Assembly (NCBI RefSeq): GCF_000147715.2
Contig: NC_017934.1
Location: forward strand, 124,001 to 188,000
DNA from: Mesotoga prima MesG1.Ag.4.2
GTDB taxonomy: Bacteria; Thermotogota; Thermotogae; Petrotogales; Kosmotogaceae
Direction of reading: 5' to 3'
Length of the DNA: 64,000 nucleotides
Shown: positions 28,194 through 62,852 of the stretch, one piece after another
Position numbering within the stretch: the first letter of the stretch is position 1
Layout of the letters: each line of letters starts with the position of its first letter
Notes under the pieces: generated by a model
The model's input: the letters and a program-made list of their open reading frames with translations, nothing else
Told to the model about the DNA's origin: nothing
Database searches by the model: none
Translations under genes and position numbers: made by a program

Positions 28194-28260
28194 CCGAGCA
28201 AGGACCGCTGAGAAGCGCCGTTCTTCGCCAACGGTTCTCCGTTCTCTGAAATTGACAAAA

Positions 28261-41258: not shown

Positions 41259-41520
41259 AATGAGTACTGATAAGGGAACAAGAGCAGCAGTTTCACAGAT
41301 TATCACCCAGATCCTGTACAGAAGCACGAGGATGACAAGAAGTAAGGGGTCGGTATGAGTGACTTAGGATGACGGCCATTCTATTTTCACGTCACTTTAA
41401 TTCTTATTGTTTTTCTGAGCGATTAGCCTACAGCGTTTCAAACAAGCGGTTCTTCCAGAGATAGGGGTCTTCATCTTGATCGTGCAGCAGTATTATAGAA
41501 TAGTGTGTCGATTTCTTTCT

Positions 41521-41836
41521 GTAGGGGCGAACGGCTGTTCGCGCGCGATAGCTTGACAATATGTACGCATCGCCGGCAATGTTTGTTGGGAGCAATGGTT
41601 GATGGCAGAGTAATCTTGAGTAGCATTGGCAGAATCGTTTATGAACATGTCATCCGCAGTGAGAAAGAACTGAATCGAATTCGTGATTACATTGAGAATA
41701 ACCCCTTGAGATTGCAGATAGACAGAGAGAATCCCGACAGAAAGACAAGTCAGGTTCGTTTAACTATTGAAGAGGATGATCTCTATCCTTGGGAAGATTG
41801 ATCCTTAATAGCGGGCGTGCCGCCGCGCGCCCCTAC
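41521..41836 (+). mobile_element. RAYT deletion derivative A (non-autonomous REP element)
   Basis: This 316-bp unit is bounded by the left palindrome (GGGCGAACGGCTGTTCGC form, mutated to GCGCGC at its end) and the right palindrome (41811-41836). The coding part keeps CTHRRQCLLGAMVDGRVILSS, then joins IGRIV directly to YEHVIRSEKELNRIRDYIEN and ends TIEEDDLYPWED. The 5' end and the central block with the PNHLHG histidine motif are deleted, so it cannot encode transposase. Both deletion junctions are the same as at 52237-52551. Confidence 0.85.
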
Positions 41837-41930
41837 ATCCGTTTGGATCGAATTTATTCTCACATGCAACTTACAACTTGGAACTGCTCTTCTCAACGTA
41901 CGAGTTATCTCAAAAGCGAAAATCGGCTCT

Positions 41931-42037
41931 TTCCCCGCGAAGCGGGCACTGCGTCCTGGTGCGATCTTTGCCAGCACTGCGACCTGGGATGTTCTTCCCA
42001 GCCTTGCGTCCGCCGATGATTTTCGGCGCCTTGCGTC
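41931..42037 (-). repeat. Hairpin array with decamer spacers, copy 1
   Basis: Read on the minus strand, decamers of the form GACGCAAGGC/GTCGCAGTGC alternate with four different short hairpins (e.g. CGCCGAAA...TCGGCG, TGGGAAGAACATCCCA, CCCGCTTCGCGGG). A second copy is at 42342-42448 and a third, in the opposite orientation, at 51661-51764. Confidence 0.75.
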
Positions 42038-42341
42038 TTATTCCGTTCTTTCCAACCACCTACCCGCTACCACCGACCACGTCTTCAAAAGCCCAGATCC
42101 CGGATGAAGTCCGGGATGACAGCCCTTCGCGTCATTCTGGCATACTTCTGGCCAGATTTGGCTCGTTCAACTATTGAAGAGGATGATCTCTATCCTTGGG
42201 AAGACTGATCATTATTGATAGCGGGCGTGCCGCCGCACGCCCCTACATCCGTTTGGATCGAATTTATTCTCACATGCAACTCACAACTTGGAACTGCTCT
42301 TCTCAACGCACGAGTTATCTCAAAAGCGAAAATCGGCTCTT

Positions 42342-42448
42342 TCCCCGCGAAACTGGCACTGCGTCCTGGTGCGATCTTTGCCAGCATTGCGACCTGGGAT
42401 GTTCTTCCCAGCCTTGCATCCGCCGATGCTTTTCGGCGCCTTGCGTCT
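42342..42448 (-). repeat. Hairpin array with decamer spacers, copy 2
   Basis: Near-identical to 41931-42037; one outer stem is altered (CCGCGAAACTGG), so that hairpin is lost while the decamers persist. Confidence 0.75.
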
Positions 42449-43062
42449 TATTCCGTTCTTTCCAACCCCCTACCTGCCATCCCCGACCACGGTTCCCTTC
42501 AGAAGAGCAGATCCCGAAACAAGTTCGGGATGACAATCCTTCAGTTCATTCTGGCATGATTCTGGCCAGAATCCGGTTCGTTCAACTATTGAAGAGGATG
42601 ATCTCTATCCTTGGGAAGATTGATCCTTAATAGCGGGCGTGCCGCCGCACGCCCCTACATCCGCTTGGGTCGAAATTATTTGCAATGCAACTCACAATTT
42701 GGAACTTGTAACCGTTCTTTTCTGAGAACGGAGAACCTTTCAAAGGTAAACCTGTTTCTTTTGCTCTTACGAACCCGCTACCTGATGCCATCGACTACGG
42801 TTTCTCAAAAGCCCAGATCCCGGATGAAGTCCGGGATGACAGCCCTTCGCGTCATTCTGGCATACTTCTGGCCAGATTTGGCTCGTTCAACTACTGAAGA
42901 GGATGATCTCTATCCTTGGGAAGACTGATCCTTAATAGCGGGCGTGCCGCCGCACGCCCCTACATCCGTTTGGGTCGAATTTATTCTCACATGCAACTCA
43001 CAACTTGGAACTGATTCTTTGTCCTTTCCAACCCCCTAACTGCTACCACCGACCACGTCTTT

Positions 43063-43119: not shown

Positions 43120-45276
43120 TTGAGGATCGGAATTGCCGGACTCGGAACAGTCGGGTCATGTGTCTACGCGATTCTTTCGGATAAGGGAGACGAGATCGAA
43201 AAGAGGTCGGGGAGAAGATGCGTCGTCTCCAAGGTCATTACGAGAACTCACAGCAAGTACGAGAAGCTGGGAATTCCTTCCGATCTGATCGCGGAGGATT
43301 TCGAGGATCTTATTATAAACAGCGATATAGTTGTTGAGACGATTGGCGGGACTGAAGCCGCCAGAAAGCTGGTAAAGCAGTCTCTCGAGCTGAATAGAAC
43401 GGTCGTGACGGCCAACAAGATGCTTATTTCGGAATTCGGCAACGAATTCATGAACAGTTCTCCGATCAAGAGCCTATTCTTCGAAGCGGCCGTCGGTGGG
43501 GGTATTCCTATCATCTCTCTTCTGGAGGACTATCTCATCTTCCATGGAATCAAACGCATTCGGGGTATTCTGAATGGGACAACGAATTTCATACTTTCCG
43601 AGATGCAGAAGGGAATTGACTACGCTTCGGCTCTGAAGATTGCTCAGGAAAAGGGTTATGCGGAAGCCGATCCATCGAGCGATGTGAAAGGCTTCGATGC
43701 TGCTTATAAGCTGTCGGTGCTCACCGGCGTCAAAACAGGCGTCTTCCCCGGTATTTCCACGATTGAAACAAAGGGCATCGAAGGAATAGAGAAAAGCGAT
43801 CTTGAGAGAGCAGCGACCGCAGGGAAAAAGCTCAAATTGATCGGGACAATCGACTTCGAAAGGGAGAGGGCTTCAGTTCAGCCGCAGGAAGTTGAAAGAG
43901 ACGATCCACTGTGGAGCGTAGACGGTGTCGAGAACGCCATAGAAGTTGAAACGGATCTTTCTGGAAGATTTCTTCTCAGGGGCGAGGGCGCGGGAGCCCA
44001 GCCGACCGCAACGGCTATCATCTCTGACATTCTGAGGGCGTCGAGATATGCGGAGAAGCAGAGCAATTCCGTTGTGATTATGAAATTTGGCGGGACTTCA
44101 GTTGACACGCCGGAGAAGATAAAGGATGTGGCGCAGCGGGTCCAGCGAAAGGTTCTGAGCGGCGTCAAACCCGTTCTCGTTGTATCGGCAATGGGTTTTG
44201 AAACAGATACGCTTCACGAACTTGCCCGAGAGATTTCAGACAAGCCAAACGGAAGAGAGATGGACATGCTTCTGGCGACAGGCGAGCAGAAGTCGATAGC
44301 CCTTGTAGCGATGGCGATCCAAGAGCTTGGAATGAAATCGATCTCCCTTTCCGGTAATCAGGCGAGGATACAGACAGATTCGAACTTCTCGAACGCGAGA
44401 ATCGTCGGGATAGATGCCGACCTTATAAACAGATATCTGAAGAACGGCTACGTTCCGGTTGTTGCAGGCTTCCAGGGGTCCACATTCTCCGGAGAGATCA
44501 CGACACTCGGCAGGGGAGGATCGGATCTGACCGCCGTCGTTCTTGCAAAGGCGCTGGGATCGCAGCTGTGCGAAATATATAAGGATGTGGACGGCGTCTA
44601 TTCGGCCGACCCGAGGATAGTTCCCAATGCAAGGCCGATAAAAGAGATATCTTGGGAAGAGATGATAGAGCTTTCGAAGCAGGGTGCTCAGGTTCTTCAA
44701 AGCAGAGCATCGGAATTCGTAAGGAAGTATGATATAAAGGTGCTTGTGAAAAACGCGCACACCAATGCTAGAGGCACGCTTATATGGAGGGGATCAAAAG
44801 TGGAACAGCCTATTGTGAGAGCAGTAACTTCGGATCAGGACATCGTGAAAGTCGTTCTGCAAGAGGTACCTGACAGACCGGGAATAGCGGCGAGAGTTCT
44901 GAAGACCCTTGCCGAGCAGAATGTCAACATCGACATGATAATACAGAGTATGAGAAGCGGGGATTACAACACGATGGCCTTCACTATCCAGGCAAGCGAT
45001 CTCGACAAGCTGAAGCAAGACGTACTTAAGTCGAGGAGCGAAGCCAGAGAAATCACCGTCGAAGGCGCCATCGCAAAACTCTCTATCGTCGGAGTAAATC
45101 TTACTGCCACTCCCGCTATCGCGGCGACGCTCTTCGAGACCCTTGCTAACGAGGGCATCAACATAGACATGATCAGCGCAAGCAACAGCAGGATTTCCGT
45201 CGTAATAGACAACAAGAAAGTGAGTCTTGCCGTTAACGCCATTCACAGCGCCTTCAGTCTGGAGGAGATCATATGA
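43120..45276 (+). CDS. Bifunctional homoserine dehydrogenase-aspartate kinase, copy A
   Basis: This is a 718-aa fusion. Homoserine dehydrogenase comes first: NAD(P) motif GLGTVGS (7-13), ANKMLIS, GGGIPII and RIRGILNGTTNFILSEM. Aspartate kinase follows from about 318: VVIMKFGGTSVDTPEKI, TLGRGGSDLTAVVLAKAL and EIYKDVDGVYSADPRI. It ends with two ACT domains (about 575 and 655) that normally bind threonine or lysine. The order is the reverse of E. coli ThrA and, as I recall, equals Thermotoga. It catalyses the first and third steps from aspartate to threonine. The start is TTG here but ATG in copy B. It overlaps thrC by 4 bp. Confidence 0.94.
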   Translation: MRIGIAGLGTVGSCVYAILSDKGDEIEKRSGRRCVVSKVITRTHSKYEKLGIPSDLIAEDFEDLIINSDIVVETIGGTEAARKLVKQSLELNRTVVTANKMLISEFGNEFMNSSPIKSLFFEAAVGGGIPIISLLEDYLIFHGIKRIRGILNGTTNFILSEMQKGIDYASALKIAQEKGYAEADPSSDVKGFDAAYKLSVLTGVKTGVFPGISTIETKGIEGIEKSDLERAATAGKKLKLIGTIDFERERASVQPQEVERDDPLWSVDGVENAIEVETDLSGRFLLRGEGAGAQPTATAIISDILRASRYAEKQSNSVVIMKFGGTSVDTPEKIKDVAQRVQRKVLSGVKPVLVVSAMGFETDTLHELAREISDKPNGREMDMLLATGEQKSIALVAMAIQELGMKSISLSGNQARIQTDSNFSNARIVGIDADLINRYLKNGYVPVVAGFQGSTFSGEITTLGRGGSDLTAVVLAKALGSQLCEIYKDVDGVYSADPRIVPNARPIKEISWEEMIELSKQGAQVLQSRASEFVRKYDIKVLVKNAHTNARGTLIWRGSKVEQPIVRAVTSDQDIVKVVLQEVPDRPGIAARVLKTLAEQNVNIDMIIQSMRSGDYNTMAFTIQASDLDKLKQDVLKSRSEAREITVEGAIAKLSIVGVNLTATPAIAATLFETLANEGINIDMISASNSRISVVIDNKKVSLAVNAIHSAFSLEEII

Positions 45277-46319
45277 AGGGAGTCATAGAGAGTTATGAGA
45301 AGTTCCTGCCTATAACACCGAAGACTCCAAAAATAACGCTTCTAGAAGGGAACACTCCCTTGATCTACCTTGAGAACATAAGCAAACAGTACGGGGTGAA
45401 AGTCTATGTGAAGTATGAGGGCGCAAATCCGACGGGCTCCTTCAAAGACAGGGGGATGGTCCTTGCAATTGCAAAAGCGATCGAAGAAGGCTCAAGAGCG
45501 GTTATCTGCGCCTCGACAGGGAACACCTCTGCCTCTGCGGCGGCGTACTCCGCCCGGACCGGCCTGAAATCGATAATTCTAATTCCCGAGGGTAAGATCG
45601 CGATAGGGAAGCTAGCGCAGGCAATGATCTACGGGGCAAAGGTAATCCAGATAGACGGGAATTTCGATAACTGCCTTGAACTGGCCAAGAAGATCTCTGA
45701 GAACTATCCCGTCACGCTCGTGAACAGTCTAAATCCTTACAGACTAGAAGGTCAGAAAACGGCCGCCTTCGAGATCATAGATGTTTTGGGACGTGCCCCG
45801 GACTATCACTTCATCCCGGTGGGAAACGCGGGCAACATTTCCGCCTACTGGATGGGCTACAGGGAGTATCGTGAGAAGGGACTGTCGGAATCCCAGCCCA
45901 GAATGATGGGCTTTCAGGCAGAGGGAGCGGCCCCTATCGTATACGATAGAGTTTTCGAGCATCCCGAGACCATCGCGACCGCTATTAGAATCGGTAATCC
46001 CGCAAGCTGGAAAAAGGCAGTTGCTGCAAGAGACGAGTCGGGAGGCGTTATCGAGGCACTGACAGACGAAGAGATCCTTCACGCTCAGAAACTCCTGGCC
46101 AGCGCGGAGGGCGTCTTCTGCGAACCAGCCTCTGCGGCTTCCTTCGGCGGATTTCTCAGGAAGGCGCGAGAGGGTCTTTTTGAAGCAAGTGATATTGCCG
46201 TCTGCACACTTACCGGAAACGGACTTAAGGATCCCGATGCAGTCTTGAAGTCTGTAGACAGGCCTCTTGTGGTTGAGAATGATCTCGAGGTAGTTCTGAA
46301 AGAGGCGGGCTTGAAGTGA
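45273..46319 (+). CDS. thrC: Threonine synthase, copy A
   Basis: This 348-aa PLP enzyme converts O-phosphohomoserine to threonine. The PLP lysine is K58 in NPTGSFKDRGM; the phosphate loop is ASTGNTSASAAAYSARTGL and HFIPVGNAGNISAYWMGY; the C-terminal motif is CTLTGNGLKDPD. It is the short bacterial class. The ATG overlaps the hom-ask stop (ATGA) and the end overlaps thrB (GTGA), so the three genes are translationally coupled. Copy B (55331-56377) is about 90% identical by eye. Confidence 0.94.
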   Translation: MKGVIESYEKFLPITPKTPKITLLEGNTPLIYLENISKQYGVKVYVKYEGANPTGSFKDRGMVLAIAKAIEEGSRAVICASTGNTSASAAAYSARTGLKSIILIPEGKIAIGKLAQAMIYGAKVIQIDGNFDNCLELAKKISENYPVTLVNSLNPYRLEGQKTAAFEIIDVLGRAPDYHFIPVGNAGNISAYWMGYREYREKGLSESQPRMMGFQAEGAAPIVYDRVFEHPETIATAIRIGNPASWKKAVAARDESGGVIEALTDEEILHAQKLLASAEGVFCEPASAASFGGFLRKAREGLFEASDIAVCTLTGNGLKDPDAVLKSVDRPLVVENDLEVVLKEAGLK

Positions 46320-47164
46320 GACTGAAGGCGCCTGCCACGACGGCAAATATGGGGAGCGGATTCGACGTCGTCGGAATGGCGTTGAAGCTTCATAATACAG
46401 TTCAGTTCGAAAAGGCGAACCGCTTTAAGGTGCATTCTATCGGCAGGTATGGTCTGGAGATAGGGGATGCCGCGGAGACCTTCGGAAATGCTATAGAGAG
46501 ATTTGAGAAGCTCACCGGAAAAAAAGTTCCGGCCCTTCAGATTATTCAGGAGTGCGAGATACCGCCGGCCCGCGGGCTTGGCTCGAGCGCCGCTGCGATC
46601 GCCTCCGCGCTGTTCATCTCGAACATAATGACCGGAGGAAGGATTCCCACTGATGCGCTTCTCGAAATCGGAACGGAGATCGAAGGCCATCCCGATAACA
46701 TCGTCCCGTGTATGGTTGGCGGCCTCACCGTATCCTATTATGACGGTTCGAGGCTAGACTACGAGAAGTTCGAAATGCCCGATCACAGATTGACCTTTCT
46801 TGTGCCTGAGTTCAAGCTTTCTACAGAGGCAATGAGAAAGGCGCTTCCCGATTCGATTCCCTTCAAAGATGCTCTGGGGAACATAAAGAATGTCTCTCAG
46901 TTCATTTCCAAAGCCTCCAGGGGCGATTTCGCGGGAGCATTGAAATACACAAAAGACTTTATCCACCAGTCTTACAGGATAGACAGCGATCCCAGAATGA
47001 AGGAACTTGTCGATAGGACAGAAGAAAGGAATCCGGGTTACTGGTTTGTCAGCGGTTCGGGATCGTCCATCTGTTGCGATCTCGAAGATACCGGAGGCCT
47101 CCCGTATCTCGAGGCCGTAATTAGAACTTCACCGGCGAACGAACCCTTCATAGTCGAAATGTAA
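46316..47164 (+). CDS. thrB: Homoserine kinase, copy A
   Basis: This 282-aa GHMP kinase makes O-phosphohomoserine for ThrC. N-terminal APATTANMGSGFDVVGMAL; ATP-binding motif PPARGLGSSAAAIASALF at 83-100; EGHPDNIVPCMVGG; C-terminal VSGSGSSICCDLED. GTG start coupled to thrC. It is the least conserved pair of the duplication (roughly 80% identity with copy B). The stop is 24 bp from the convergent AsnB-like gene, with no clear terminator. Confidence 0.93.
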   Translation: MRLKAPATTANMGSGFDVVGMALKLHNTVQFEKANRFKVHSIGRYGLEIGDAAETFGNAIERFEKLTGKKVPALQIIQECEIPPARGLGSSAAAIASALFISNIMTGGRIPTDALLEIGTEIEGHPDNIVPCMVGGLTVSYYDGSRLDYEKFEMPDHRLTFLVPEFKLSTEAMRKALPDSIPFKDALGNIKNVSQFISKASRGDFAGALKYTKDFIHQSYRIDSDPRMKELVDRTEERNPGYWFVSGSGSSICCDLEDTGGLPYLEAVIRTSPANEPFIVEM

Positions 47165-47187: not shown

Positions 47188-48612
47188 TCAACTTCTGTAA
47201 ACAGTGTCCGCGGCTCCTCTGCAGGGGAACTGCTCGTCGAATATCCGGTAGTACAGAAGCTCCTCTTTGGACCTGATTCCGTTGTTTTGCCTTTCGCGTT
47301 CGAATTCTGAGTCGCTTATAGCCTCCTCGGCGTACTCCTTCATGATATGAGACGATCCCGACCCGACGCTGAACTTGCTCTTTTTCCGCCAGACTACGCT
47401 TTCAGGAAGATCGTTTTCGAAGGCCTTGCGAAGAATCCATTTCTCAGTCTTTTCAGGCCCGTGGATCTTCCAGTCCACTGGAATCGAGAAGGCAAGATCA
47501 ACTACATTTGGGTCCATGAAGGGAACATCGAATTCGATCCCGAAAGCAAGAGCCATCCTGTCGTTTCGCTGGAAGCCCGAAAGATAGCCGTTTTTCGTTA
47601 TTCTCAAGGACTCTTCATCCACGGATTCTGCAGAGGGAAGCTCCTTCATATACTCGTAGCCGGCGAAGAGCTCATCGGCTCCTTCTCCCATCAGGACGAA
47701 AGAACTGTCTTCCTCTGCGGCCATCTTCGATACTATATAATTCGGTATCGCACTCCTCACAAGGGGAGGATCGAACGACTCGAGATGGTAAATTACGTCC
47801 GGAAGGACTTCGAGCATCTCTTTGAAATCGTAAGTGTATTCCCTGTGATCCGTGCCTAAATACCGGGAGACCTCCTTGGCGAACGCCGGATCTTTCCCCT
47901 CTTCGCTTCCTACGGTAAACGTCTTCAAAGAACCGTTCAGTTTGCTTGCAACGGCAGCTATACAGCTACTGTCCAGCCCTCCGCTGAGGAATACTATCGG
48001 CTCGGATTTGACCGCCGTCATTCTGTTGTCGACAGCCCTTTCGAGAGAAGTCCTGAGACGTTTCGCCGCCTCTTCTTCACTTTTTACTTGTCTTTCGGTC
48101 AACAGGTCTTCAAGTGAGGAGTACTCACTGAAGCCTTCGTTAGAAGAGAAAAAGTGGCCGGGCGGAAAGACCTGTACATGACTGCAGAAGGGAGTAAGGG
48201 CCTTCAGTTCCGAAGCGAAGGCGATTCCACCGTTACAGCGCCCGTAGTAAAGAGGCTTCAGGCCCAGAGGATCCCGGGCGACAAAGGTTTCGTCATCTGT
48301 ATCTATAGCGAAAGCGAAAGAACCATCCAGCTCGTTTAAAAATCCCGAACGGTTTTCCTTGTAAAGCTCGAGAATCCTTCGCGGCCAGACCTCCCCGGGG
48401 AAGTTTCTGAGGATACCGTCGAAGACAACGCTTTCCCTCGTGCCTTCGAAAACTATCATGTTTTCGTCAAAGGCATTGCTTACCACCGCTCCCATGCTCG
48501 CCTCTCCCTGGGTTTTTAGAACTCTCGTTTTGCTTCCCCTGTGTCTCAAGTAAGAAAGAGAGCCTTCTATCATTTTTCTCTCAGGTTTAAGGGTGACAAC
48601 AATTCCACTCAT
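47188..48612 (-). CDS. AsnB-like amidoligase without glutaminase nucleophile, copy A
   Basis: This 474-aa protein has the AsnB architecture: an Ntn-type N-domain and an ATP-pyrophosphatase C-domain. The C-domain is intact: FLSGGLDSSCIAA at 208-220, MGEGADELFAGYEY, and WRKKSKFSVGSGSS with the conserved Lys. The N-domain starts MSGIVV, so Cys2, the glutaminase nucleophile, is Ser, and the glutamine-binding NGEIYN is DGILRN (65-70). Glutamine hydrolysis should be impossible. Beta-lactam and carbapenam synthetases share this state. It may use ammonia or an internal amine. Start supported by GGAGG. Convergent with thrB, divergent from the opine-dehydrogenase gene. Confidence 0.88.
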   Translation of the reverse strand: MSGIVVTLKPERKMIEGSLSYLRHRGSKTRVLKTQGEASMGAVVSNAFDENMIVFEGTRESVVFDGILRNFPGEVWPRRILELYKENRSGFLNELDGSFAFAIDTDDETFVARDPLGLKPLYYGRCNGGIAFASELKALTPFCSHVQVFPPGHFFSSNEGFSEYSSLEDLLTERQVKSEEEAAKRLRTSLERAVDNRMTAVKSEPIVFLSGGLDSSCIAAVASKLNGSLKTFTVGSEEGKDPAFAKEVSRYLGTDHREYTYDFKEMLEVLPDVIYHLESFDPPLVRSAIPNYIVSKMAAEEDSSFVLMGEGADELFAGYEYMKELPSAESVDEESLRITKNGYLSGFQRNDRMALAFGIEFDVPFMDPNVVDLAFSIPVDWKIHGPEKTEKWILRKAFENDLPESVVWRKKSKFSVGSGSSHIMKEYAEEAISDSEFERERQNNGIRSKEELLYYRIFDEQFPCRGAADTVYRS

Positions 48613-48894: not shown

Positions 48895-49974
48895 ATGAAG
48901 ATAGCTGTTATTGGTGCGGGAAATGGTGGACAGGCCCTTTCTGCCGTTCTAGCCATGAGGGGCCACGATGTCTCGCTATACAACAGAAGTCAGAAACGAA
49001 TCTCACCATTACTCTTAGAAAGAAAGATAAGAGTCGAAGGCGAGTCAGAGGGCAAAGCAAAGCTTAGATACGTTGGTACAGATATGAAGAAGGCGATAGA
49101 GGGTGCCGAAGCTATCATGGTTGTTGTGCCGGCCTTTGCTCATGCAAAAATCGCCGAAAAACTGGCCGAATGTATCGGCGAAGGTCAGATAGTTGTTTTG
49201 AACCCAGGGCGAACGGGCGGAGCGCTGGAATTCGACAAGATCTTCAGAGAAAAGGGAGTTAGAGAAAAGGCCGTGATCGCCGAGGCTCAGACCTTCGTCT
49301 TTGCTTCAAGAATTTCGGGCCCTGGAATGGTGAGAATATTCAGGATTAAGAATGCCGTTCCTATTTCAGTGCTTCCCTCAAAGGATAACGAGTCCGTATT
49401 TCCAATCATCAGCGAGATCATGCCCGAGTTCACGCTGGCAAAAAACGTTCTCTACACTAGCTTCAACAATATTGGCGCAGTCTTTCATCCCGGCGCGATT
49501 CTCATGAACGCCGGCTGGATTGAGACGAAGCATGGAGACTTCCAATTCTATCTTGAGGGGATTAGCCCATCGGTTGCGAGAGTTCTGGAGGCTCTGGACG
49601 AAGAGCGCTGCGAAGTAACAAGGAAACTTGGCGTGGAAGCCATGGGTGCGAAGGAGTGGCTTGATTACGCCTATGACGTAAAGGGTGAAGATCTCTATGC
49701 GGCCATCCATAGCAACGAAGGCTACAGGGGAATCATGGCGCCTATAAGTATTGAGAACAGGTACATTATGGAAGACGTGCCTATGAGTCTGGTTCCAATG
49801 AGCTGCTTTGGAAGAGAACTTGGAGTGGATACGAGAGTCATGGATTCGATAATAAGCATAGCCGGGGCAGTAATGGGGAGAGACTTCTGGAAGGAAGGAA
49901 GAAATCTTGTGAGCCTCGGCGTCGACGAAATGTCCGTAGAAGAATTGACCAGGTATGTCGAGGAAGGGACCTGA
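48895..49974 (+). CDS. Octopine/nopaline dehydrogenase-family enzyme, copy A
   Basis: This is a 359-aa protein. The N-terminal Rossmann fold has GAGNGGQALSAVLAMRGHDVS (7-27). The C-terminal octopine-DH domain has TSFNNIGAVFHPGAILMNAG with the catalytic His near 198, and EGYRGIMAPISIENRYIMED. Relatives reductively join an amino acid's amine to a 2-oxo acid, or run in reverse; others reduce ketopantoate-like substrates. Substrate unknown. AGGAGG precedes the ATG. The B12 protein gene begins 1 bp after its stop, so they are one operon. Confidence 0.87.
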   Translation: MKIAVIGAGNGGQALSAVLAMRGHDVSLYNRSQKRISPLLLERKIRVEGESEGKAKLRYVGTDMKKAIEGAEAIMVVVPAFAHAKIAEKLAECIGEGQIVVLNPGRTGGALEFDKIFREKGVREKAVIAEAQTFVFASRISGPGMVRIFRIKNAVPISVLPSKDNESVFPIISEIMPEFTLAKNVLYTSFNNIGAVFHPGAILMNAGWIETKHGDFQFYLEGISPSVARVLEALDEERCEVTRKLGVEAMGAKEWLDYAYDVKGEDLYAAIHSNEGYRGIMAPISIENRYIMEDVPMSLVPMSCFGRELGVDTRVMDSIISIAGAVMGRDFWKEGRNLVSLGVDEMSVEELTRYVEEGT

Positions 49975-49975
49975 T

Positions 49976-51595
49976 ATGAAGATACTAGCAGGGGCCATTG
50001 GAAGCGATATTCACACAGCGGGAATTCTTAACTTCTTGAACTTGGCGCGTAATGAAGGCTATGAAACGATCTACATTGGAAGCGTGATAGGCATTGACAA
50101 ACTGCTAGACAGCATAGAAGAGGCCTCGCCGGACATAGTGGCCGTAAGCTACAGGCTGGGAAAAGAGTCCTGCGAGCAGCTCCTCCGAGAACTGAAAGTC
50201 TCGCTGGAAAACAGAGGAATAGAAAAGAGACTGATCTTCGGTGGAACGGTCGAGACGGCCGAGGTGGCTGAAAAGAGCGGTCTCTTCGAGAAGGTCTTTG
50301 ACGGCAGCGAGATGCCGGAGGAAGTCGTGATGTTTCTCAGGGGCAAGACGGACGAAAAGGGAGAGGTCGACTATCCTCAGACACTTCTCGAAAGAATCGC
50401 CTCCAAAAAGCCATATCCGTTGATAAGACATCACATAGGGCTTGAGACGGTCGATGCAACAGAGGAAGCCGTCAGAAAGCTTGCTGAATCGGGCTTGCTG
50501 GATATCATCTCACTGGCTCCGGACCAGAACTGCCAGCAGTGGTTCTTTCAACAGGAGAATATGATCTCCTCGGAAGACGGGGCGGGGGGCGCGCCTTTCA
50601 GAAAACGAGAGGATTTTGAAAGGATGTATGCTGCCAGCAGGACCGGTAACTATCCATTGATGAGGTGTTATTCTGGAACGAGAGACCTCCTGAAATTCTC
50701 CCTTCTCTTAAAAGAAACCTTGAACAACGCGTGGGCCGCGATACCCATTACCTGGTACTCTCAGCTTGATGGGAGATCAGATCGTGAACTTCTGGAGGCA
50801 ATAAGAGACAATCAGGCCGCAATCGCCTGGAATGGTGGAAAGGGAATCCCGGTTGAGATAAACGAGGCCCATCAGTGGGCGCTCAGATACTGCCACGCTG
50901 CCGTAGAGGTTGCTACTGCCTATCTTGCAGCGATGGCTGCCAAGCGACTCGGTGTGCAGGTCTACGTGGCTCAGTACATGTTCAACACGCCCCCGGGGAT
51001 CTCACCGAAGATGGATTTGGCGAAGGCGCTGGCGAAGAAGGAACTTATAGAGTCTCTTGAGGGTGACGATTTCACCGTTGTCACGATGGTAAGACCCGGG
51101 CTCATGTCGCTTCCGGCAGACCCCGATATGGCGAGGGGCCAGCTTGTTTCATCTGTCTACACTGCCATGAATATTGACCCGGACATAGTTCACGTGGTTG
51201 CATATTGCGAGGCGACGAGAAGAGCAACCGACGTCGAAATCATCGAAAGTGTGAAGATGGCGAAACAGGCGATAAATGAAGCGATCAAGGGCCTTCCTGA
51301 CTTCAGACAGGACAAGGAGATTCATGAACACAAACAGTATTTGAAGAGTGAATGTAAAGTGATAATTGAGGCCATTGAAAAAATAAAGACGGGTGAGCTC
51401 ACCTCGCCCGAGACAATATACACGGCCGTAAAGACGGGAATTCTTGATGCGCCTGGACTCAGCAAAATGTCGGTCGCAAAAGGCGCCGTCAGGGCCGCGA
51501 TAATCGACGGCCAGTCCTGCGCGGTCGACGAGGAAGGAAAGAAGATAGACGAAAACGATAGACTTACCGCTTTGTCAGGTGCAAATAAGGATTGA
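49976..51595 (+). CDS. Fused glutamate-mutase-like B12 protein, copy A
   Basis: This is a 539-aa protein. Residues 1-125 form a B12-binding domain very like glutamate mutase S: GAIGSDIHTAG with the D-x-H-x-x-G motif (His13 as lower ligand), AVSYRLG in place of S-x-L, and LIFGGTVE. The remainder resembles the GlmE TIM barrel, best seen at the end: SECKVIIEAIEKIKTGEL and KTGILDAPGLSKMSVAKGAVR. S and E parts are thus one chain with the B12 part first. The region aligned to the GlmE arginine claw reads LAPDQNCQQW rather than TRQNRY, so the substrate probably differs from glutamate. The ATG at 49976 is chosen over one at 49955 inside the previous gene. Confidence 0.82.
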   Translation: MKILAGAIGSDIHTAGILNFLNLARNEGYETIYIGSVIGIDKLLDSIEEASPDIVAVSYRLGKESCEQLLRELKVSLENRGIEKRLIFGGTVETAEVAEKSGLFEKVFDGSEMPEEVVMFLRGKTDEKGEVDYPQTLLERIASKKPYPLIRHHIGLETVDATEEAVRKLAESGLLDIISLAPDQNCQQWFFQQENMISSEDGAGGAPFRKREDFERMYAASRTGNYPLMRCYSGTRDLLKFSLLLKETLNNAWAAIPITWYSQLDGRSDRELLEAIRDNQAAIAWNGGKGIPVEINEAHQWALRYCHAAVEVATAYLAAMAAKRLGVQVYVAQYMFNTPPGISPKMDLAKALAKKELIESLEGDDFTVVTMVRPGLMSLPADPDMARGQLVSSVYTAMNIDPDIVHVVAYCEATRRATDVEIIESVKMAKQAINEAIKGLPDFRQDKEIHEHKQYLKSECKVIIEAIEKIKTGELTSPETIYTAVKTGILDAPGLSKMSVAKGAVRAAIIDGQSCAVDEEGKKIDENDRLTALSGANKD

Positions 51596-52053
51596 AATGC
51601 GCCGAAGATCGTCGGCGGAAGTGAGGCCCGCTTTGCGGGGAAGTGGTGTTACTCTAATCAGACGCAAGGCGCCGAAAAGTATCGGCGGTCGCAATGCCGG
51701 CGAAGAACATGCCGGGACGCAAGGCTGGGCAAGAACAGCCCAGGTCGCAATGCTGCCTTCGGCAGGAGGCGATTTGAAGCCAGTTCCGCTTTGCGGGAGA
51801 AGAGCCACTGTTCGCTTGCTAGAAGACGAGAGTTATAATCATTGACCGTCAACGGTCTACCGTCCTCTGACAAAGCGTAAAGAGCGGGTTATAAGAAGCG
51901 GGTTAGCAAGAACGGGTTATCAAAACCGGGTTGTGAAAACTCGAAAAAAGGTTTTGATTTGTGCAAAGGCACATTTGCTTTGGGAAGACGCAGTGAGGGA
52001 CTTATGATAAACTGCTACCAGATGACAATTCCGGACGATTATTCAGTTCTTTT
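51596..52053. repeat. Repeat region between the two gene blocks, part 1
   Basis: 51661-51764 is the third hairpin array (GACGCAAGGC/GTCGCAATGC decamers between hairpins). 51775-51865 is the shared module with AGAAGACGAGAGTTATAATC. 51884-51943 is the 14-bp tandem array (GCGGGTTATAAGAA, GCGGGTTAGCAAGA, ACGGGTTATCAAAA, CCGGGTTGTGAAAA). No gene. Confidence 0.85.
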
Positions 52054-52236
52054 GTAGGGGCGAACGGCTGTTCGCCCGAAAGAGAACCGTGCAAAAGGAG
52101 GGACCTCACATGCGGAGAACCGGGTCTGGGTTTTTCGGTTCTAGCTGAATAGACGGTGACATACGGTTAGGAACTCGTCAGTCCACTATTCGAAATGCTA
52201 CGGGATGATAATTCCAGACGATTATGCAGTTCTTTT
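52054..52236 (+). repeat. 183-bp module between two left palindromes, copy 1
   Basis: It starts with GGGCGAACGGCTGTTCGCCC and runs to the next identical palindrome. It contains GGTTCTAGC, GAATAGACGGTGACATACGG and GAACTCGTCAGTCCACTATT. An almost identical module is at 61838-62020, in both cases directly upstream of a RAYT element. Confidence 0.8.
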
Positions 52237-52551
52237 GTAGGGGCGAACGGCTGTTCGCCCGCGATAGCTTGACAAAATGTTCGCATCGCGGCAATGTTTG
52301 TTGGGAGCCATGGTTGATGGCAGAGTAATCTTGAGTAGCATTGGCAAAATCGTTTATGAACATGTCATCCGCAATGAGAAAGAACTGAATCGAATTCGTG
52401 AGTACATTGAGAATAACCCCTTGAGATGGCAGATAGACAGAGAGAATCCCGACAGAAAGACAAGTCAGGTTCTTTCAACAATTGAAGAGGACGATCTCTA
52501 TCCTTGGGAAGATTGATCCTTAATAGCGGGCGTGCCGCCGCACGCCCCTAC
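52237..52551 (+). mobile_element. RAYT deletion derivative B (non-autonomous REP element)
   Basis: This 315-bp unit has the same two deletions as 41521-41836: the 5' junction GCCCGCGATAG|CTTGACAA and the internal junction joining IGKIV to YEHVIRNEKELNRIREYIEN. Intact palindromes lie at both ends (52241-52260; 52526-52551). The coding remnant lacks the histidine motif and cannot be an active transposase. Confidence 0.88.
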
Positions 52552-53116
52552 ATCCGTTTGGATCGAAATTATTTGCAATGCAACTCACAACTTGGAACTT
52601 GCAACCGTTATTTTCTGAGAACGGAGAACCTTTCAACGGTCAACCAGTTTCTCTTGTTCTTACGAACCGCTACCCGCTACCACCGGCCACGGTTTTTCAT
52701 AAGCCCAAATCCTGAACAGGAGCACTTCAGGATGACTTGATGAGTTGGTTCTGATCAGATTGCTTCAATTTGCCTTCTTCTGCGTTTCTTCTTTTTACAA
52801 CTGACAACTGCAACTTGGAACTAATTTTTTGCTTTTTCCAACCACCAACCCGCTACCCCCAACCCCGGTTTCTCGAAGCCCAGATCCTGAAGAGGAGCAC
52901 TTCAGGATGACTTGATGAGTTGGTTCCTTGGGAAGACTGATCCTTAATAGCGGGCGTGCAGCCGCACGCCCCTACATCCGTTTGGATCGAATTCATTCGC
53001 ACATGCAACTCACAACTGGAACTTGCAACCGTTATTTTCTGAGAACGGAGAACCTTTCAACTGTCAACCAGTTTTTCTTGTTCTTACGAACCACTAACCG
53101 CTACCCCCGACAACGT
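52552..53116 (+). repeat. Repeat region between the two gene blocks, part 2
   Basis: Two composite units follow with a second right-type palindrome at 52950-52975 (one mismatch, GTGCAGCCGC), preceded by a shortened RAYT tail (CCTTGGGAAGACTGATC). Stem-loops of the form GATCCTGAA-AGGAGCACTTCAGGA occur at about 52708 and 52884. No gene. Confidence 0.8.
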
Positions 53117-53177
53117 CTTTACGGTGTATACTTTTGATTGTTAGTGGCTTCATTGCTTCAGGAGGGGGTGCAACAAT
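53117..53177 (+). promoter_or_regulatory. Conserved leader of block B
   Basis: CGTCTTTACGGTGTATACTT, TAGTGGCTTCATTGCTTCAG and GAGGGGGTGCAACAAT match the leader of block A at about 90%. The start is ATG here. Confidence 0.5.
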
Positions 53178-55334
53178 ATGAGAATCGGGATTGCCGGACT
53201 TGGCACTGTCGGGTCCTGTGTCTATGCAATTCTTAAAGACAAGGGAGATGAGATCGAGAAGAGATCTGGGAGAAAGTGTATCGTCTCCAAGGTAATTACG
53301 AGAACTCACAGCAAGTACGACAAGCTGGGAATTCCATCCGATCTAGTCGCGGAGGATTTCGAGGATCTTATTATCAACAGCGATATAGTTGTAGAAACGA
53401 TTGGCGGGAGCGAAGCCGCAAGAAAGCTTGTAAAGCAGTCTCTCGAGCTGAATAGAACGGTCGTGACGGCCAACAAAATGCTGATTTCGGAATTCGGTAA
53501 CGAATTCACAAACAGCTCTCCGATAAAGAGCCTATTCTTCGAAGCGGCCGTCGGCGGGGGTATTCCTATCATCTCTCTTCTCGAGGACTATCTCATCTTT
53601 CATGGGATCAAACGTATTCGGGGTATTCTGAATGGCACAACGAATTTCATACTTTCCGAGATGCAGAAGGGAATGGACTACGCTTCGGCTCTGAAGATTG
53701 CTCAGGAAAAGGGTTATGCGGAAGCCGATCCAACGAGCGATGTGAAGGGCTACGATGCCGCTTATAAGCTGTCGGTGCTCACCGGCGTCAAAACGGGCGT
53801 CTTCCCCGGTATTTCCACGATTGAAACAAAGGGCATCGAAGGAATAGATAAAAGCGATCTTGAGAGAGCAGCAACCGCAGGGAAAAAGCTCAAATTGATC
53901 GGGACAATTGATTTCGAAAGAGAGGTAGCTTCAGTTCAGCCGCAGGAGATTGAAAGGAATGATCCTCTTTGGAGCGTAGATGGGGTTGAAAACGCCATAG
54001 AGGTCGAGACGGATCTCTCGGGAAGATTTATTCTCAGGGGAGAGGGGGCGGGAGCTCAACCAACTGCAACGGCGATCATTTCAGACATTCTCAGGGCATC
54101 GAGATACGCAGAGAAGCAGAGTAACTCAGTTGTGATAATGAAATTTGGTGGAACCTCAGTCGACTCGGCAGAGAAAATAAAGGATGTTGCGGAGAGGGTA
54201 CAGAAAAAGGTCCTTAGTGGTGTCAAGCCTGTGATAGTTGTGTCGGCTATGGGTGTTGAGACAGACAAACTTCATGAACTCGCGAAAGAGATATCCAGCA
54301 AACCGAACGGTAGAGAGATGGACATGCTTCTGGCAACAGGAGAGCAGAAGTCTATTGCCCTTGTTGCAATGGCGATTCAGGTGCTCGGGATGAAATCGAT
54401 TTCACTTTCGGGCAATCAGGCGAGAATTCAGACCGATTCGAATTTTTCGAATGCAAGAATCGTCGGAATAGACGCCGATCTTATAAACAGATACCTATCA
54501 AACGGGTACGTTCCAGTTGTGGCCGGCTTCCAGGGATCCACCTACACCGGCGAGATTACGACTCTTGGCAGAGGAGGCTCGGATCTTACGGCCGTTGTGT
54601 TGGCCAAAGCGCTGGGATCACAACTCTGCGAGATTTACAAGGATGTAGACGGTGTCTATTCGGCCGATCCTAGGATAGTTCAGAAGGCCAGACCGATCAA
54701 AGAGATTTCATGGGAAGAGATGATAGAGCTTTCAAAGCAGGGTGCTCAGGTGCTTCAAAGCAGAGCATCTGAATTTGCCAGAAAGTACGATATTAAAGTG
54801 CTTGTGAAAAACGCACACTCAAATGCTAGAGGCACGCTAATATGGAGGGGATCGAAAGTGGAACAGCCTATTGTTAGAGCAGTAACTTCTGATGACGAGA
54901 TTGTGAAAGTAGTTCTGCAAGAAGTTCCTGATAGACCGGGAATAGCTGCGAGAGTTCTGAAAACTCTTGCAGAGCAGAACGTGAATATTGACATGATAAT
55001 ACAGAGCATGAGGAGCGGGGAGTTTAACACAATGGCCTTCACTATACACGGGAGCGATCTCTCAAAGCTGAAACAGGATATCCTTAAGACAAGAAGCGAG
55101 GCCAAAGAAATAACTGTGGAAAGTTCAATCGCAAAGCTTTCTATTGTCGGAGTCAACTTGACTGCTACTCCGGCAATCGCTGCGACTCTCTTTGAGACTC
55201 TTGCCAATGAAGGAATCAATATCGATATGATCAGCGCCAGCAACAGCAGAATATCGGTTGTTATCGACAGCAATATGGTTCATCTGGCGGTAAACGCTAT
55301 CCACAGTGCTTTCAGCTTGGAGGAGATTGTATGA
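53178..55334 (+). CDS. Bifunctional homoserine dehydrogenase-aspartate kinase, copy B
   Basis: 718 aa, same length and domain order as copy A and about 92% identical by eye. All catalytic motifs are kept: GLGTVGS, NGTTNFILSEMQKG, KFGGTSVDSAEKI, TTLGRGGSDLTAV, and both ACT domains. Nucleotide identity with copy A is very high from about 53290 to 53935 and clearly lower afterwards, suggesting gene conversion. Synonymous sites are more AT-rich than in copy A. Coupled to thrC by ATGA overlap. Confidence 0.94.
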   Translation: MRIGIAGLGTVGSCVYAILKDKGDEIEKRSGRKCIVSKVITRTHSKYDKLGIPSDLVAEDFEDLIINSDIVVETIGGSEAARKLVKQSLELNRTVVTANKMLISEFGNEFTNSSPIKSLFFEAAVGGGIPIISLLEDYLIFHGIKRIRGILNGTTNFILSEMQKGMDYASALKIAQEKGYAEADPTSDVKGYDAAYKLSVLTGVKTGVFPGISTIETKGIEGIDKSDLERAATAGKKLKLIGTIDFEREVASVQPQEIERNDPLWSVDGVENAIEVETDLSGRFILRGEGAGAQPTATAIISDILRASRYAEKQSNSVVIMKFGGTSVDSAEKIKDVAERVQKKVLSGVKPVIVVSAMGVETDKLHELAKEISSKPNGREMDMLLATGEQKSIALVAMAIQVLGMKSISLSGNQARIQTDSNFSNARIVGIDADLINRYLSNGYVPVVAGFQGSTYTGEITTLGRGGSDLTAVVLAKALGSQLCEIYKDVDGVYSADPRIVQKARPIKEISWEEMIELSKQGAQVLQSRASEFARKYDIKVLVKNAHSNARGTLIWRGSKVEQPIVRAVTSDDEIVKVVLQEVPDRPGIAARVLKTLAEQNVNIDMIIQSMRSGEFNTMAFTIHGSDLSKLKQDILKTRSEAKEITVESSIAKLSIVGVNLTATPAIAATLFETLANEGINIDMISASNSRISVVIDSNMVHLAVNAIHSAFSLEEIV

Positions 55335-56377
55335 GAGGTGTAATAGAGACCTATGAGAAGTACCTGCCTGTAACGCAGAAGACCCCGAGAGTCTCACTCC
55401 TTGAAGGTGATACTCCTCTAATACATCTGGAAAAGGCGAGCAAGAAGTTCGGTTTAAATGTTTATGCTAAGTACGAAGGAGCTAATCCTACTGGATCATT
55501 CAAAGACAGGGGAATGGTCCTCGCGATAGCCAAAGCGATAGAAGAGGGCTCAAAGGCTGTTATTTGTGCCTCCACTGGAAACACTTCGGCCTCTGCAGCC
55601 GCTTACTCTGCAAGGACCGGTTTGAAGTCGATAATCTTGATTCCGGAGGGAAAGATCGCTCTAGGCAAGCTTGCTCAGGCGATGATCTATGGCGCAAAGG
55701 TAATTCAGATAGATGGGAATTTCGATGAGTGCCTTGAACTAGCGAAGAGTATATCGGAGAATTACCCCGTTACTCTCGTTAACAGTCTCAACCCTTACAG
55801 GCTTGAGGGGCAGAAAACGGCTGCCTTCGAAATAGTAGACGTTCTGGGAAGGGCTCCCGATTATCACTTCATACCGGTAGGAAATGCCGGTAATATTACT
55901 GCCTACTGGATGGGGTATCGAGAGTATCACGAAAGTGGTCTTTCAGACGGCCTGCCCAAGATGATGGGCTTCCAGGCCGAAGGGGCAGCACCGATAGTAT
56001 ATGACAGAGTCTTCGATAACCCCGAGACGATAGCTACCGCGATAAGAATTGGTAACCCTGCGAGTTGGAAGAAAGCAGTTGCTGCAAGAGACGAATCGGA
56101 AGGAGTGATCGAGGCTTTGACCGACGAAGAAATCCTCGAGGCGCAGAGACTTCTTGCGGCTTCTGAAGGTGTCTTCTGTGAGCCGGCTTCTGCAGCTTCT
56201 TTCGGCGGGTTTCTGAGAAAAGCCGAAGAGGGTCTGTTCTGTTCAAGTGATCTCGTTGTCTGTACCCTGACAGGTAATGGACTTAAAGATCCCGACGCCG
56301 TTCTCAAGTCCGTAGATAAGCCCATCGTAGTAGAGAACAGTCTGGATGCTGTCCTGAAAGAGGCGGGCCTGAAATGA
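55331..56377 (+). CDS. thrC: Threonine synthase, copy B
   Basis: 348 aa, no length change from copy A. PLP lysine in NPTGSFKDRGM; STGNTSASAAAYSARTGLKS; HFIPVGNAGNITAYWMGY. Differences are spread and mostly conservative (KKFGLNVYAKY versus KQYGVKVYVKY), with no loss of catalytic residues, so both copies appear functional. The end overlaps thrB by ATGA. Confidence 0.94.
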   Translation: MRGVIETYEKYLPVTQKTPRVSLLEGDTPLIHLEKASKKFGLNVYAKYEGANPTGSFKDRGMVLAIAKAIEEGSKAVICASTGNTSASAAAYSARTGLKSIILIPEGKIALGKLAQAMIYGAKVIQIDGNFDECLELAKSISENYPVTLVNSLNPYRLEGQKTAAFEIVDVLGRAPDYHFIPVGNAGNITAYWMGYREYHESGLSDGLPKMMGFQAEGAAPIVYDRVFDNPETIATAIRIGNPASWKKAVAARDESEGVIEALTDEEILEAQRLLAASEGVFCEPASAASFGGFLRKAEEGLFCSSDLVVCTLTGNGLKDPDAVLKSVDKPIVVENSLDAVLKEAGLK

Positions 56378-57222
56378 GGCTGAGGGCACCGGCCACAACG
56401 GCAAATATGGGAAGCGGATTCGATGTTGTCGGTATGGCTTTGAAGCTCCATAATGTCGTGCAATTTGAGAAGGCAGATAGGTTGAAAGTCTTGTGCATAG
56501 GAAGATATGGTCAGGAGATCGAGAACTCCGAAGGACTATTCGAAAAGGCGATAAAGGGATTCGAGAAAGTTACTGGCAAAGCCGTTCCTGGCGTTCAGAT
56601 AATCCAGGAGTGCAATATTCCACCGGCACGCGGCCTGGGTTCAAGTGCCGCAGCGATAGCCTCAGCTCTGTTTATTGCAAACATCGTGACCGGCGGGAGT
56701 ATTCCCATGAAGACACTTCTCCAGATTGGAACGGAGATTGAAGGTCATCCCGACAACATCGTTCCCTGTATGCTTGGAGGGCTTGTGGTTTCCTACTATG
56801 ACGGCGAAAAACTTGATTATGAGAAATTCGAAATGACTGATCAAAGGCTGACATTTCTTGTGCCCGAATTCAAGCTTTCCACCGGTGAGATGAGAAAGGC
56901 GCTTCCTGAATCGGTTCCCTTCAGGGACGCGATAAGCAACCTGAAGAATGTTTCTCAGTTCATTTCGAAAATCGCCAAAGGCAATCTGATCGAAGCCTTC
57001 AGATATACTCACGACAGTATCCACCAGATCTACAGAATAAACAGCGACCCCAGAATGAAAGAGCTGATTAGCTGCATTGAAGGAAGGAACACGAATTACT
57101 GGTTTGTGAGCGGTTCTGGCTCGTCGGTCTGCTGCGATCTCGAAGATGTCGCAGGGCTTCCTTACCTGGAAGCCGTAATAAGAACGTCTCCCGCGAACGA
57201 GCCATTCATTATCGAATTATGA
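56374..57222 (+). CDS. thrB: Homoserine kinase, copy B
   Basis: 282 aa, ATG start (copy A uses GTG). GHMP motif PPARGLGSSAAAIASALFIA; GHPDNIVPCMLGG; VSGSGSSVCCDLED. It is the most diverged pair in the duplication, with changes concentrated in the segment after GRYG (QEIENSEGLFEKAIKG versus LEIGDAAETFGNAIER) and in the C-terminal helix. All catalytic motifs are kept. Confidence 0.93.
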   Translation: MRLRAPATTANMGSGFDVVGMALKLHNVVQFEKADRLKVLCIGRYGQEIENSEGLFEKAIKGFEKVTGKAVPGVQIIQECNIPPARGLGSSAAAIASALFIANIVTGGSIPMKTLLQIGTEIEGHPDNIVPCMLGGLVVSYYDGEKLDYEKFEMTDQRLTFLVPEFKLSTGEMRKALPESVPFRDAISNLKNVSQFISKIAKGNLIEAFRYTHDSIHQIYRINSDPRMKELISCIEGRNTNYWFVSGSGSSVCCDLEDVAGLPYLEAVIRTSPANEPFIIEL

Positions 57223-57246
57223 GCTTTCCAAAAACAACTGCAATAA

Positions 57247-58674
57247 TCAGCTTCTGTAAACTGTTTTCGCGGCGCATCCGGAAGGGAACAAGTCGTCGAA
57301 GATTCGGTAATAAAGAAGTTCTTCCTTCGACCTAATTCCTTTCTCTCGCCTTTCAGTCTCGAATTCGGAATCGCTTATTTTCTCTTCAGCATATTCCTTC
57401 ATTAGGTGCGATGAGCCTGAGCCGACGCTGAACTTACTCTTTTTTCGCCATACGACACTTTTGGGAAGTTCGCTCTCGAATGCCTTCCTGAGAATCCACT
57501 TCTCGGTCTTCTCAGGCCCGTGGATTTTCCAATCGACGGGAATTGAGAATGCGAGATTCACAACTGAAGGGTCCATGAACGGAACGTCGAACTCGATCCC
57601 AAATGCTAGGGACATCCTGTCATTGCGCTGAAAGCCCGAACGATAACCGTTTCTCGTTATCCGCAAAGATTCTTCATCTATAGATTCTGAAGATGGTAGT
57701 TCTTTCATATACTCGTAACCGGCAAAGAGTTCGTCTGCGCCTTCTCCCATGAAGACGAAGGAACTACCTTCTTCTGCAGCCATTTTCGCCACAATGTAGT
57801 TTGGAATTGCACTCCTTACTAAGGGAGGATCGAACGACTCAAGGTGGTAGATGACTTCCGGTAGAGTCCTAAGCATCTCTTTGAAATCATAAGTATATTC
57901 ACTGTGGTCTGTCCCGAGATACTCGGAGACTTCCCTGGCGAATTTTGGGTCTTTTCCATCCCCGCTTCCAACGGTGAATGTTCTAAGCGATCCATTAAGA
58001 GAACTCGCCACAGCCGCTATACAGCTGCTATCGAGCCCACCGCTAAGAAATACGATAGGGTCTGAGTTGATCGAAGAGATTCTATTCTCGATGGCCTCTC
58101 CAAGAGATGTTCGAAGCAGCTCCGTTGCTTCATACTCATTTCTCATGACGGGTTCCTCCGTAAGCAGGTCTTCAAGAGAAGAATATCTCTCAAAGCCCAC
58201 GAGAGAGGAATAATAATGACCCGGCGGGAAGATTTTTACTTCGTTGCAGAAGGGCGCCAGAGCCTTCATTTCTGATGTGCATACTATGTATCCATTGATA
58301 TAGCCGTAGTACAAAGGCTTTAGACCCAGAGGGTCACGCGCGATAAGAGTCTCTTTGTCTGTATAAATTGCAAAGGCGAATGAACCGTCCAGCTCCTTCA
58401 GAAACCCCCTGCCACTTTCCTTATACAATTTCATTATCTTCTCTGGCCAAGCTGTGTCCGGATGATTCCTGAGAAAACCGTCGAAGACAACGTACTCGCC
58501 ATCTCCTTCGAAAATGCTCATTTTGCTGTCGAAGGCCCGGCTGACAACTGCGCCCATGCCTATCTTCTGTCCTGTTTCCAGAACTGTTGTTCTGCTCCCT
58601 CTATGTCCAAGGAGAGACAGTGAGGACTTTGCCATTTCTCTTGTGCCTCCATAGAAGACAGCAATTCCGCTCAT
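57247..58674 (-). CDS. AsnB-like amidoligase without glutaminase nucleophile, copy B
   Basis: 475 aa from the ATG at 58674 (MSGIAVFYGG), which has GGAGG 8 bp upstream; five more in-frame codons upstream lack a site. As in copy A, residue 2 is Ser and the glutamine motif reads DGFLRN. The ATP-PPase motifs FLSGGLDSSCIAAVAS, MGEGADELFAGYEYMKELPS and RKKSKFSVGSGSSHLMKEYA are intact. The Cys-to-Ser change in two diverged copies shows it is a fixed family property, not an error. Confidence 0.88.
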   Translation of the reverse strand: MSGIAVFYGGTREMAKSSLSLLGHRGSRTTVLETGQKIGMGAVVSRAFDSKMSIFEGDGEYVVFDGFLRNHPDTAWPEKIMKLYKESGRGFLKELDGSFAFAIYTDKETLIARDPLGLKPLYYGYINGYIVCTSEMKALAPFCNEVKIFPPGHYYSSLVGFERYSSLEDLLTEEPVMRNEYEATELLRTSLGEAIENRISSINSDPIVFLSGGLDSSCIAAVASSLNGSLRTFTVGSGDGKDPKFAREVSEYLGTDHSEYTYDFKEMLRTLPEVIYHLESFDPPLVRSAIPNYIVAKMAAEEGSSFVFMGEGADELFAGYEYMKELPSSESIDEESLRITRNGYRSGFQRNDRMSLAFGIEFDVPFMDPSVVNLAFSIPVDWKIHGPEKTEKWILRKAFESELPKSVVWRKKSKFSVGSGSSHLMKEYAEEKISDSEFETERREKGIRSKEELLYYRIFDDLFPSGCAAKTVYRS

Positions 58675-58835
58675 TCTGAATACCTCCATCCTTTTTCATC
58701 GTGAAGTCGGATTTGAACCAATTTGATTAAATCCTCAGATTCCTCATTAAACTATTATAACATGGTGCCAAATCTCCAAACTTAACTTCTGCAGCCAATT
58801 TTGTGCATTCGTTGCATATCGCGCGAGACATCGCC

Positions 58836-58869
58836 TTCACTTAGTTCACAAAGAAGATTCTTGTATAAT
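58836..58869 (+). promoter_or_regulatory. Promoter and conserved element of the opine-dehydrogenase operon B
   Basis: TTCACTTAGTTCACA (58836-58850), then TATAAT (58864-58869), at the same spacing as in copy A. A minus-strand TATAAT in AACTATTATAACATGGTG (about 58749-58766) is also conserved. Confidence 0.65.
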
Positions 58870-58958
58870 CGGAATACGAACTGAAGTTTCAGCTTTAAAA
58901 CTAGTTTCTTCCGTGTTATTTTTTTCTTTTCTAGACAGGGGATTGAGGAGGTGGTTCT

Positions 58959-60038: not shown

Positions 60039-60039
60039 G

Positions 60040-61638: not shown

Positions 61639-62020
61639 GCCAGTCTGCTAACGTGGGCCAGTTCCGACTACTTCGGGCAGAAAAGAGGGTGAATCGAGAA
61701 AGAGCATGTCGAGACGCTCGCGAGAAGACGAGAGTTATAATCACTGACTGTCAACCGTCAGCATCGGGAAGATGCAGTGAGGGACTTACGATAAACCGCT
61801 ACCAGATGAAAGTCCTAGACGATTGTGCAGTACTTTTGTAGGGGCGAACGGCTGTTCGCCCGAAAGAGAACCGTGCAAAAGGAGGGACCTCACATACGGA
61901 GAACCGGGTCTGGGGTTGTCGGTTCTAGCGGAATAGACGGTGACATACGGTTGGGAACTCGTCAGTCCACTATTCGAAATGCTACGAGATAACAATGTCA
62001 GACGATTATGCGAATCTTTT
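61639..62020. repeat. Repeat region after block B
   Basis: It contains a short copy of the AGCCAGTCTGCTAACG module, AGAAGACGAGAGTTATAATC, and from 61838 the 183-bp module between two left-type palindromes (as at 52054-52236). No gene. Confidence 0.8.
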
Positions 62021-62702: not shown

Positions 62703-62852
62703 ATCCGTTTGGGTCGGATTTATTCGCACATACAACTCACAACTTGGAACTTGCAACCGTTCTTTTCTGAGAACGGAGAACCTTTCAACGGTCTGGTGTT
62801 TCTCTTGCTCTTACGAACCCGCTACCTGCTACCACCGACCACGGTTTCTCAA
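62703..62852 (+). repeat. REP downstream module
   Basis: The same sequence follows right palindromes elsewhere (GGAACTTGCAACCGTTCTTT, ACCACCGACCACGGTTTCTC). It ends at AAAAACGTT where the truncated HD-GYP reading frame begins. Confidence 0.75.

Follow-up and report, generated by a model that had tools for sequence, protein, structure and literature searches.

A predicted ammonia-dependent amide synthetase of the AsnB fold is linked to an opine dehydrogenase homologue and a B12-dependent mutase-like protein in a conserved gene module

The window analysed here, a stretch of 64,000 nucleotides from Mesotoga prima, encodes two homologues of asparagine synthetase B (termed AsnBx) with serine instead of the nucleophilic Cys2, raising the question of which reaction they catalyse and which nitrogen donor they use. 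The genes concerned are (positions in the window, strand):

43120–47164, plus: threonine operon copy 1, adjoining AsnBx (homoserine dehydrogenase-aspartate kinase fusion, threonine synthase, homoserine kinase)
47188–48612, minus: AsnBx copy 1, predicted AsnB-fold amide synthetase (474 aa, beginning MSGIVV)
48895–49974, plus: ODH copy 1, octopine/nopaline dehydrogenase family, divergently oriented to AsnBx
49955–51595, plus: B12MutE copy 1, B12-binding domain fused to a glutamate-mutase-E-like barrel (20-base overlap with the ODH gene)
53178–57222, plus: threonine operon copy 2, adjoining AsnBx copy 2
57247–58671, minus: AsnBx copy 2, 75% identical to copy 1 (beginning MSGIAV)
58959–60038, plus: ODH copy 2 (87% identical to copy 1)
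60040–61638, plus: B12MutE copy 2 (89% identical to copy 1)

The initial annotation had described the Ser-for-Cys2 exchange as fixed in both copies with the ATP motifs intact, and the open reading frames bear this out: serine occupies position 2 in each, and SGGLDSS and GEGADELFAGY are preserved (the frame of copy 2 has an alternative start five codons further out, to 58689, beginning MEVFR). The reported degeneration of the glutamine site was likewise confirmed and extends beyond the replacement of NGEIYN by DGILRN or DGFLRN, since RHRGPD is changed to RHRGSK or GHRGSR, and RLSI and the glutamine-binding motif SDxE are both gone. The RxK synthetase motif, including its lysine, is kept as in AsnB. 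Copy 1 is thus composed of a glutaminase-dead N-terminal domain (residues ~1–165) and an intact synthetase domain (~180–470). The loss of these motifs marks the glutaminase as dead at the level of the predicted protein, with its fold retained. All other species of the genus that bear the gene show the identical motif state, which argues that AsnBx is neither a chance product nor a broken gene. The two copies differ at 25% of their residues, with a dN of 0.18 and third codon positions near saturation, indicating strong constraint on proteins under selection. Relative to Cys-bearing members of the family, the N-terminal domain of Cys-less members has evolved faster than the synthetase domain (N/C-domain identity ratio 0.72, compared with 0.98 in Cys members). 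A whole-genome search for further AsnB relatives returned none but one short weak match.

The fold model of AsnBx (pLDDT 93.8) spans both domains of E. coli AsnB, which is also its nearest structure (1ct9, TM 0.89–0.90). Comparison with the structures of AsnB, beta-lactam synthetase (BLS) and carbapenam synthetase (CarA), proposed earlier as a check on a lactam-forming role, placed AsnB nearest by fold (TM 0.90, compared with 0.80 and 0.76 for 1jgt and 1q15) as well as by sequence (224 bits, compared with 97 for BLS and 60 for CarA). The catalytic tyrosine of BLS, contained in GYGAD of 1jgt, is replaced by glutamate in GEGAD of AsnBx; this residue, E310, is the equivalent of Glu348 in AsnB and is invariant across 41 aligned relatives, in which the ATP and adenylate motifs are also invariant or nearly so. 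AsnBx therefore has in common with E. coli AsnB the whole fold, the ATP-pyrophosphatase motifs, GEGxDE and the RxK lysine, but it differs in the missing nucleophile and glutamine site, in shifted pocket residues and in its location in a module with ODH and B12MutE. With BLS and CarA it shares the AsnB fold and a dead glutaminase domain, whereas their catalytic tyrosine is absent, the AsnB-type glutamate is kept and the gene setting is different. Against the asparagine synthetase model TIGR01536 (cut-off 267.1), copy 1 scored 268.5 and copy 2 257.0, and both copies were well below the cut-off of PRK09431. The amidotransferase for N-acetylglutaminylglutamine amide (NAGGN), work on which is cited in PMC13060819, is likewise AsnB-like and produces an amide osmolyte; AsnBx scored only 144 and 134 bits against TIGR03104 (curated cut-off 570) and has other partner genes.

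A genome scan identified 80 loci related to AsnBx, and named relatives of the window cluster are Kosmotogaceae MAGs (Thermotogota). Position 2 is occupied by Cys, Ser, Ala, Gly or Pro among these relatives; the occurrence of Ala, Gly or Pro rules out Ser2 as a substitute nucleophile. Cys-bearing relatives retain all glutamine motifs, and Cys2-intact, apparently glutamine-using members are present in the same operon type in other phyla. On a synthetase-domain tree, rooted on a single long-branched outgroup, the Cys state changed at least three times, and one clade of 61 rows (support 95) unites most Cys-less members. With this root, the tree suggests that the family consisted ancestrally of glutamine users and that the function was lost later.

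ODH, B12MutE and AsnBx form a conserved module. The three genes are linked in both window copies and at 18 loci elsewhere, distributed over at least eight phyla (Thermotogota, Bipolaricaulota, Chloroflexota, Raymondbacteria, Armatimonadota, Bacillota, Aminicenantes and KSB1); they often abut or overlap, and their order varies among the 18 loci. In 50 other genomes, which include many incomplete MAGs, the synthetase gene is unlinked; 20 of these carry B12MutE elsewhere, and none was found in the other 30. ODH adjoined the unlinked B12MutE gene in all 12 cases fetched, and the ODH-B12MutE pair occurs without AsnBx in many relatives within the Thermotogota. Given that each part is found without the other in many genomes, AsnBx may serve more than one purpose. 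In two genera of the same family, the AsnBx slot directly after ODH-B12MutE is taken by a divergent ATP-grasp ligase:

L144, 10679–11716, plus: Ddl-like ATP-grasp ligase, after ODH-B12MutE
L145, 6504–7439, minus: Ddl-like ATP-grasp ligase, after ODH-B12MutE

A ligase of this kind in the same slot suggests that the third step of the pathway comprises carboxylate activation and amide formation.

The nearest solved relative of ODH is N-(1-D-carboxyethyl)-L-norvaline dehydrogenase (CENDH, 1bg6), which was matched over its full length (364 bits, profile search). His198, Arg289 and Asp294 are conserved and match aligned positions of 1bg6, which we take to be the catalytic ones in opine dehydrogenases. 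The best match to the B12MutE model was glutamate mutase E (E 3e-17, TM 0.59; 1cb7, 6h9e), followed by ornithine and lysine aminomutases. B12MutE differs from all of these in having its B12 domain, which contains DxHxxG in the window copies, fused at the N-terminus. A profile of its barrel gave no detectable match among PDB sequences, and the glutamate-binding arginines of glutamate mutase could not be mapped onto it. Searches for a riboswitch upstream of the module (Rfam), for known defence systems (PADLOC) and for B12MutE on plasmids gave no match, and promoter-like sequences in the AsnBx-ODH gap were no more frequent than expected by chance. A literature search that covered few subscription papers turned up no description of the module.

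Measured against AsnB of E. coli and of humans, the module-bearing members of the family show Thr322 replaced by Leu and Met329 by Asn throughout, and His361 replaced by Lys or Arg in most cases; the proteins of this genus additionally carry Asp for Arg400 (E. coli AsnB numbering; the sequence used for it agrees with the aligned stretch of 1ct9). These positions presumably lie near the aspartate pocket of AsnB, and the changes argue that the substrate of AsnBx is probably not plain aspartate. The cell has another means of making asparagine, namely an archaeal-type, AsnRS-related asparagine synthetase (AS-AR) of 312 residues (genome contig C1, 499918–500856; L157, 419–1357, minus strand), which scored 370 bits against a curated cut-off of 309 and matches the Pyrococcus enzyme 3p8t. 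A search of 41 genomes, that of the window among them, detected AS-AR in 36, together with AsnBx or, in many cases, without it. It is nearly universal in this bacterial order. AsnBx is thereby ruled out as the sole asparagine synthetase of the cell; the asparagine supply does not depend on it, leaving it free for other work, and it may still provide a second route.

That AsnBx is an ordinary asparagine synthetase, using ammonia after loss of its glutaminase and placed among aspartate-family genes, is unlikely on balance. In its favour, AsnB is the nearest relative of AsnBx, the threonine genes adjoin it, AsnRS is present and requires free asparagine, the genome search revealed no bacterial AsnA or other AsnB, and copy 1 lies just above the TIGR01536 cut-off. 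The threonine operon, however, is linked to AsnBx in only part of the species of this genus and stands outside the wider module. The linkage conserved across phyla is that with ODH and B12MutE; the independent AS-AR gene, the altered pocket and the lower scores (copy 2 against TIGR01536, both copies against PRK09431) point in the same direction. The view of the initial annotation that the enzyme may serve something other than asparagine synthesis is supported by the separate AS-AR gene and the association with an opine dehydrogenase homologue, while the lactam closure it had proposed as a possibility is not supported. Closure of a lactam or ligation of an organic amine in the manner of BLS and CarA appears improbable, even though these enzymes have also lost the Cys nucleophile, the neighbouring ODH could provide a secondary amine and the Ddl-like ligase found in the same slot would join an amine. 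Glutamate stands in place of the BLS/CarA tyrosine in all relatives aligned, the scores against both enzymes are far lower than that against AsnB, and the annotated module neighbours include no beta-lactam pathway gene. Cys2-intact members in the same type of operon further show that loss of Cys2 from an AsnB homologue is by itself no signal of lactam formation, which corrects a tempting rule.

Least probable, and very unlikely, is a dead N-terminal domain in combination with a separate glutaminase subunit feeding ammonia to AsnBx: glutamine-using NAD synthetases composed of two subunits are known (PMC3376133), but annotation of the module operons revealed no glutaminase gene. The ability to use free ammonia has precedents among amide synthetases, such as the single-domain NAD synthetase, for which free ammonia is the physiological donor (PMC3376133). 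The glutaminase of NAD synthetases is unrelated, and their single-domain form is probably ancestral, whereas the glutaminase of AsnBx appears to have been lost. An AS-like nitrile synthetase also takes ammonia (PMC13060819).

The reading that we favour, with reasonable though far from full confidence, is that AsnBx acts as an ammonia-dependent carboxylate amide synthetase of the AsnB fold, in a module with B12MutE and ODH, where it would finish a product of opine-like or branched amino-acid type that may be a compatible solute. Its assignment as an amide synthetase rather than a lactam former is well supported. Joint loss of the Ntn nucleophile and of the motifs for glutamine binding, with those for ATP and adenylate kept, counts for ammonia-type chemistry, and the Cys-intact members of the same module imply that all members most likely share one chemistry, amidation with ammonia that is taken either from glutamine or free. 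Most likely, AsnBx would adenylate a small amino-acid-like substrate at a carboxylate and release the product with free ammonia. In the proposed sequence, the isomerisation of a glutamate-type skeleton would fall to B12MutE, ODH would couple an amino acid with a 2-oxo acid by reduction to give a secondary-amine (opine) product, and AsnBx would turn one carboxylate into a carboxamide, yielding a neutral, solute-like compound. We infer free ammonia as the nitrogen donor, together with the order of steps, the substrate, the product and an osmotic or nitrogen-balance role of the module; an amidated opine or branched amino-acid solute is our guess at the product. Linkage to the threonine operon in this genus counts against this reading, as it would also suit asparagine synthesis, and so does the separate occurrence of AsnBx and of the ODH-B12MutE pair in many genomes. 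More tentatively, and with somewhat less than even confidence, ODH and B12MutE together with AsnBx or the ATP-grasp ligase may constitute an undescribed pathway, present in at least eight phyla, for solutes of a new class, amidated opines or branched amino acids, formed through B12-dependent carbon-skeleton rearrangement. The role of AsnBx as an amide former, in glutamine- and ammonia-using versions, narrows the chemistry of this widespread module of B12 mutase, opine dehydrogenase and amide synthetase and makes a metabolomics test direct.

The gene surroundings fit a solute or nitrogen role of the AsnBx family, although only circumstantially. A local ODH gene is present at 19 loci, namely the 18 of the module and L078; genes from a set of ion-transport and other neighbouring families were found near 10 of them and near 6 of the 61 others, four of these six having a regulator alone. 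The excess comes mainly from Chloroflexota and Bipolaricaulota, and the set of families was chosen from those loci, which makes the difference a lead rather than a test. Ion antiporters and channels adjoin some family members, and ammonium transporter and glutamine synthetase genes adjoin others. In another family of the same order (L009, L010), Cys-less AsnBx genes lie beside genes for OpuAC betaine-binding proteins, two copies of which flank the gene in L010. Genes for MttB-type methyltransferases and corrinoid proteins were observed beside family members at L056, L078, L088, L106 and L107, and a Chloroflexota contig (L071) carries tandem AsnB-family genes (7361–9076 and 9917–11479) beside a GlnR-like regulator.

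The tandem arrangement in the window has the look of a cluster that was recently transferred to a place next to a resident one. Cluster copy 2 (10 kb, 51813–62051) shares 98.9% identity with the only copy present in a related genome (G009), to which the other flanking DNA is only 83–93% identical; for cluster copy 1, the identity to another relative is 90%. Both copies are flanked by members of a short dispersed repeat family (41513–43055, 52230–53115, 62506–62854 and 28256–29041), and a gene resembling REP-associated tyrosine transposases lies at the end of copy 2 (62008–62667, plus strand; 72 bits, cut-off 80). An Rfam match to a group II intron is located at positions 3051–3126 of the window (minus strand).
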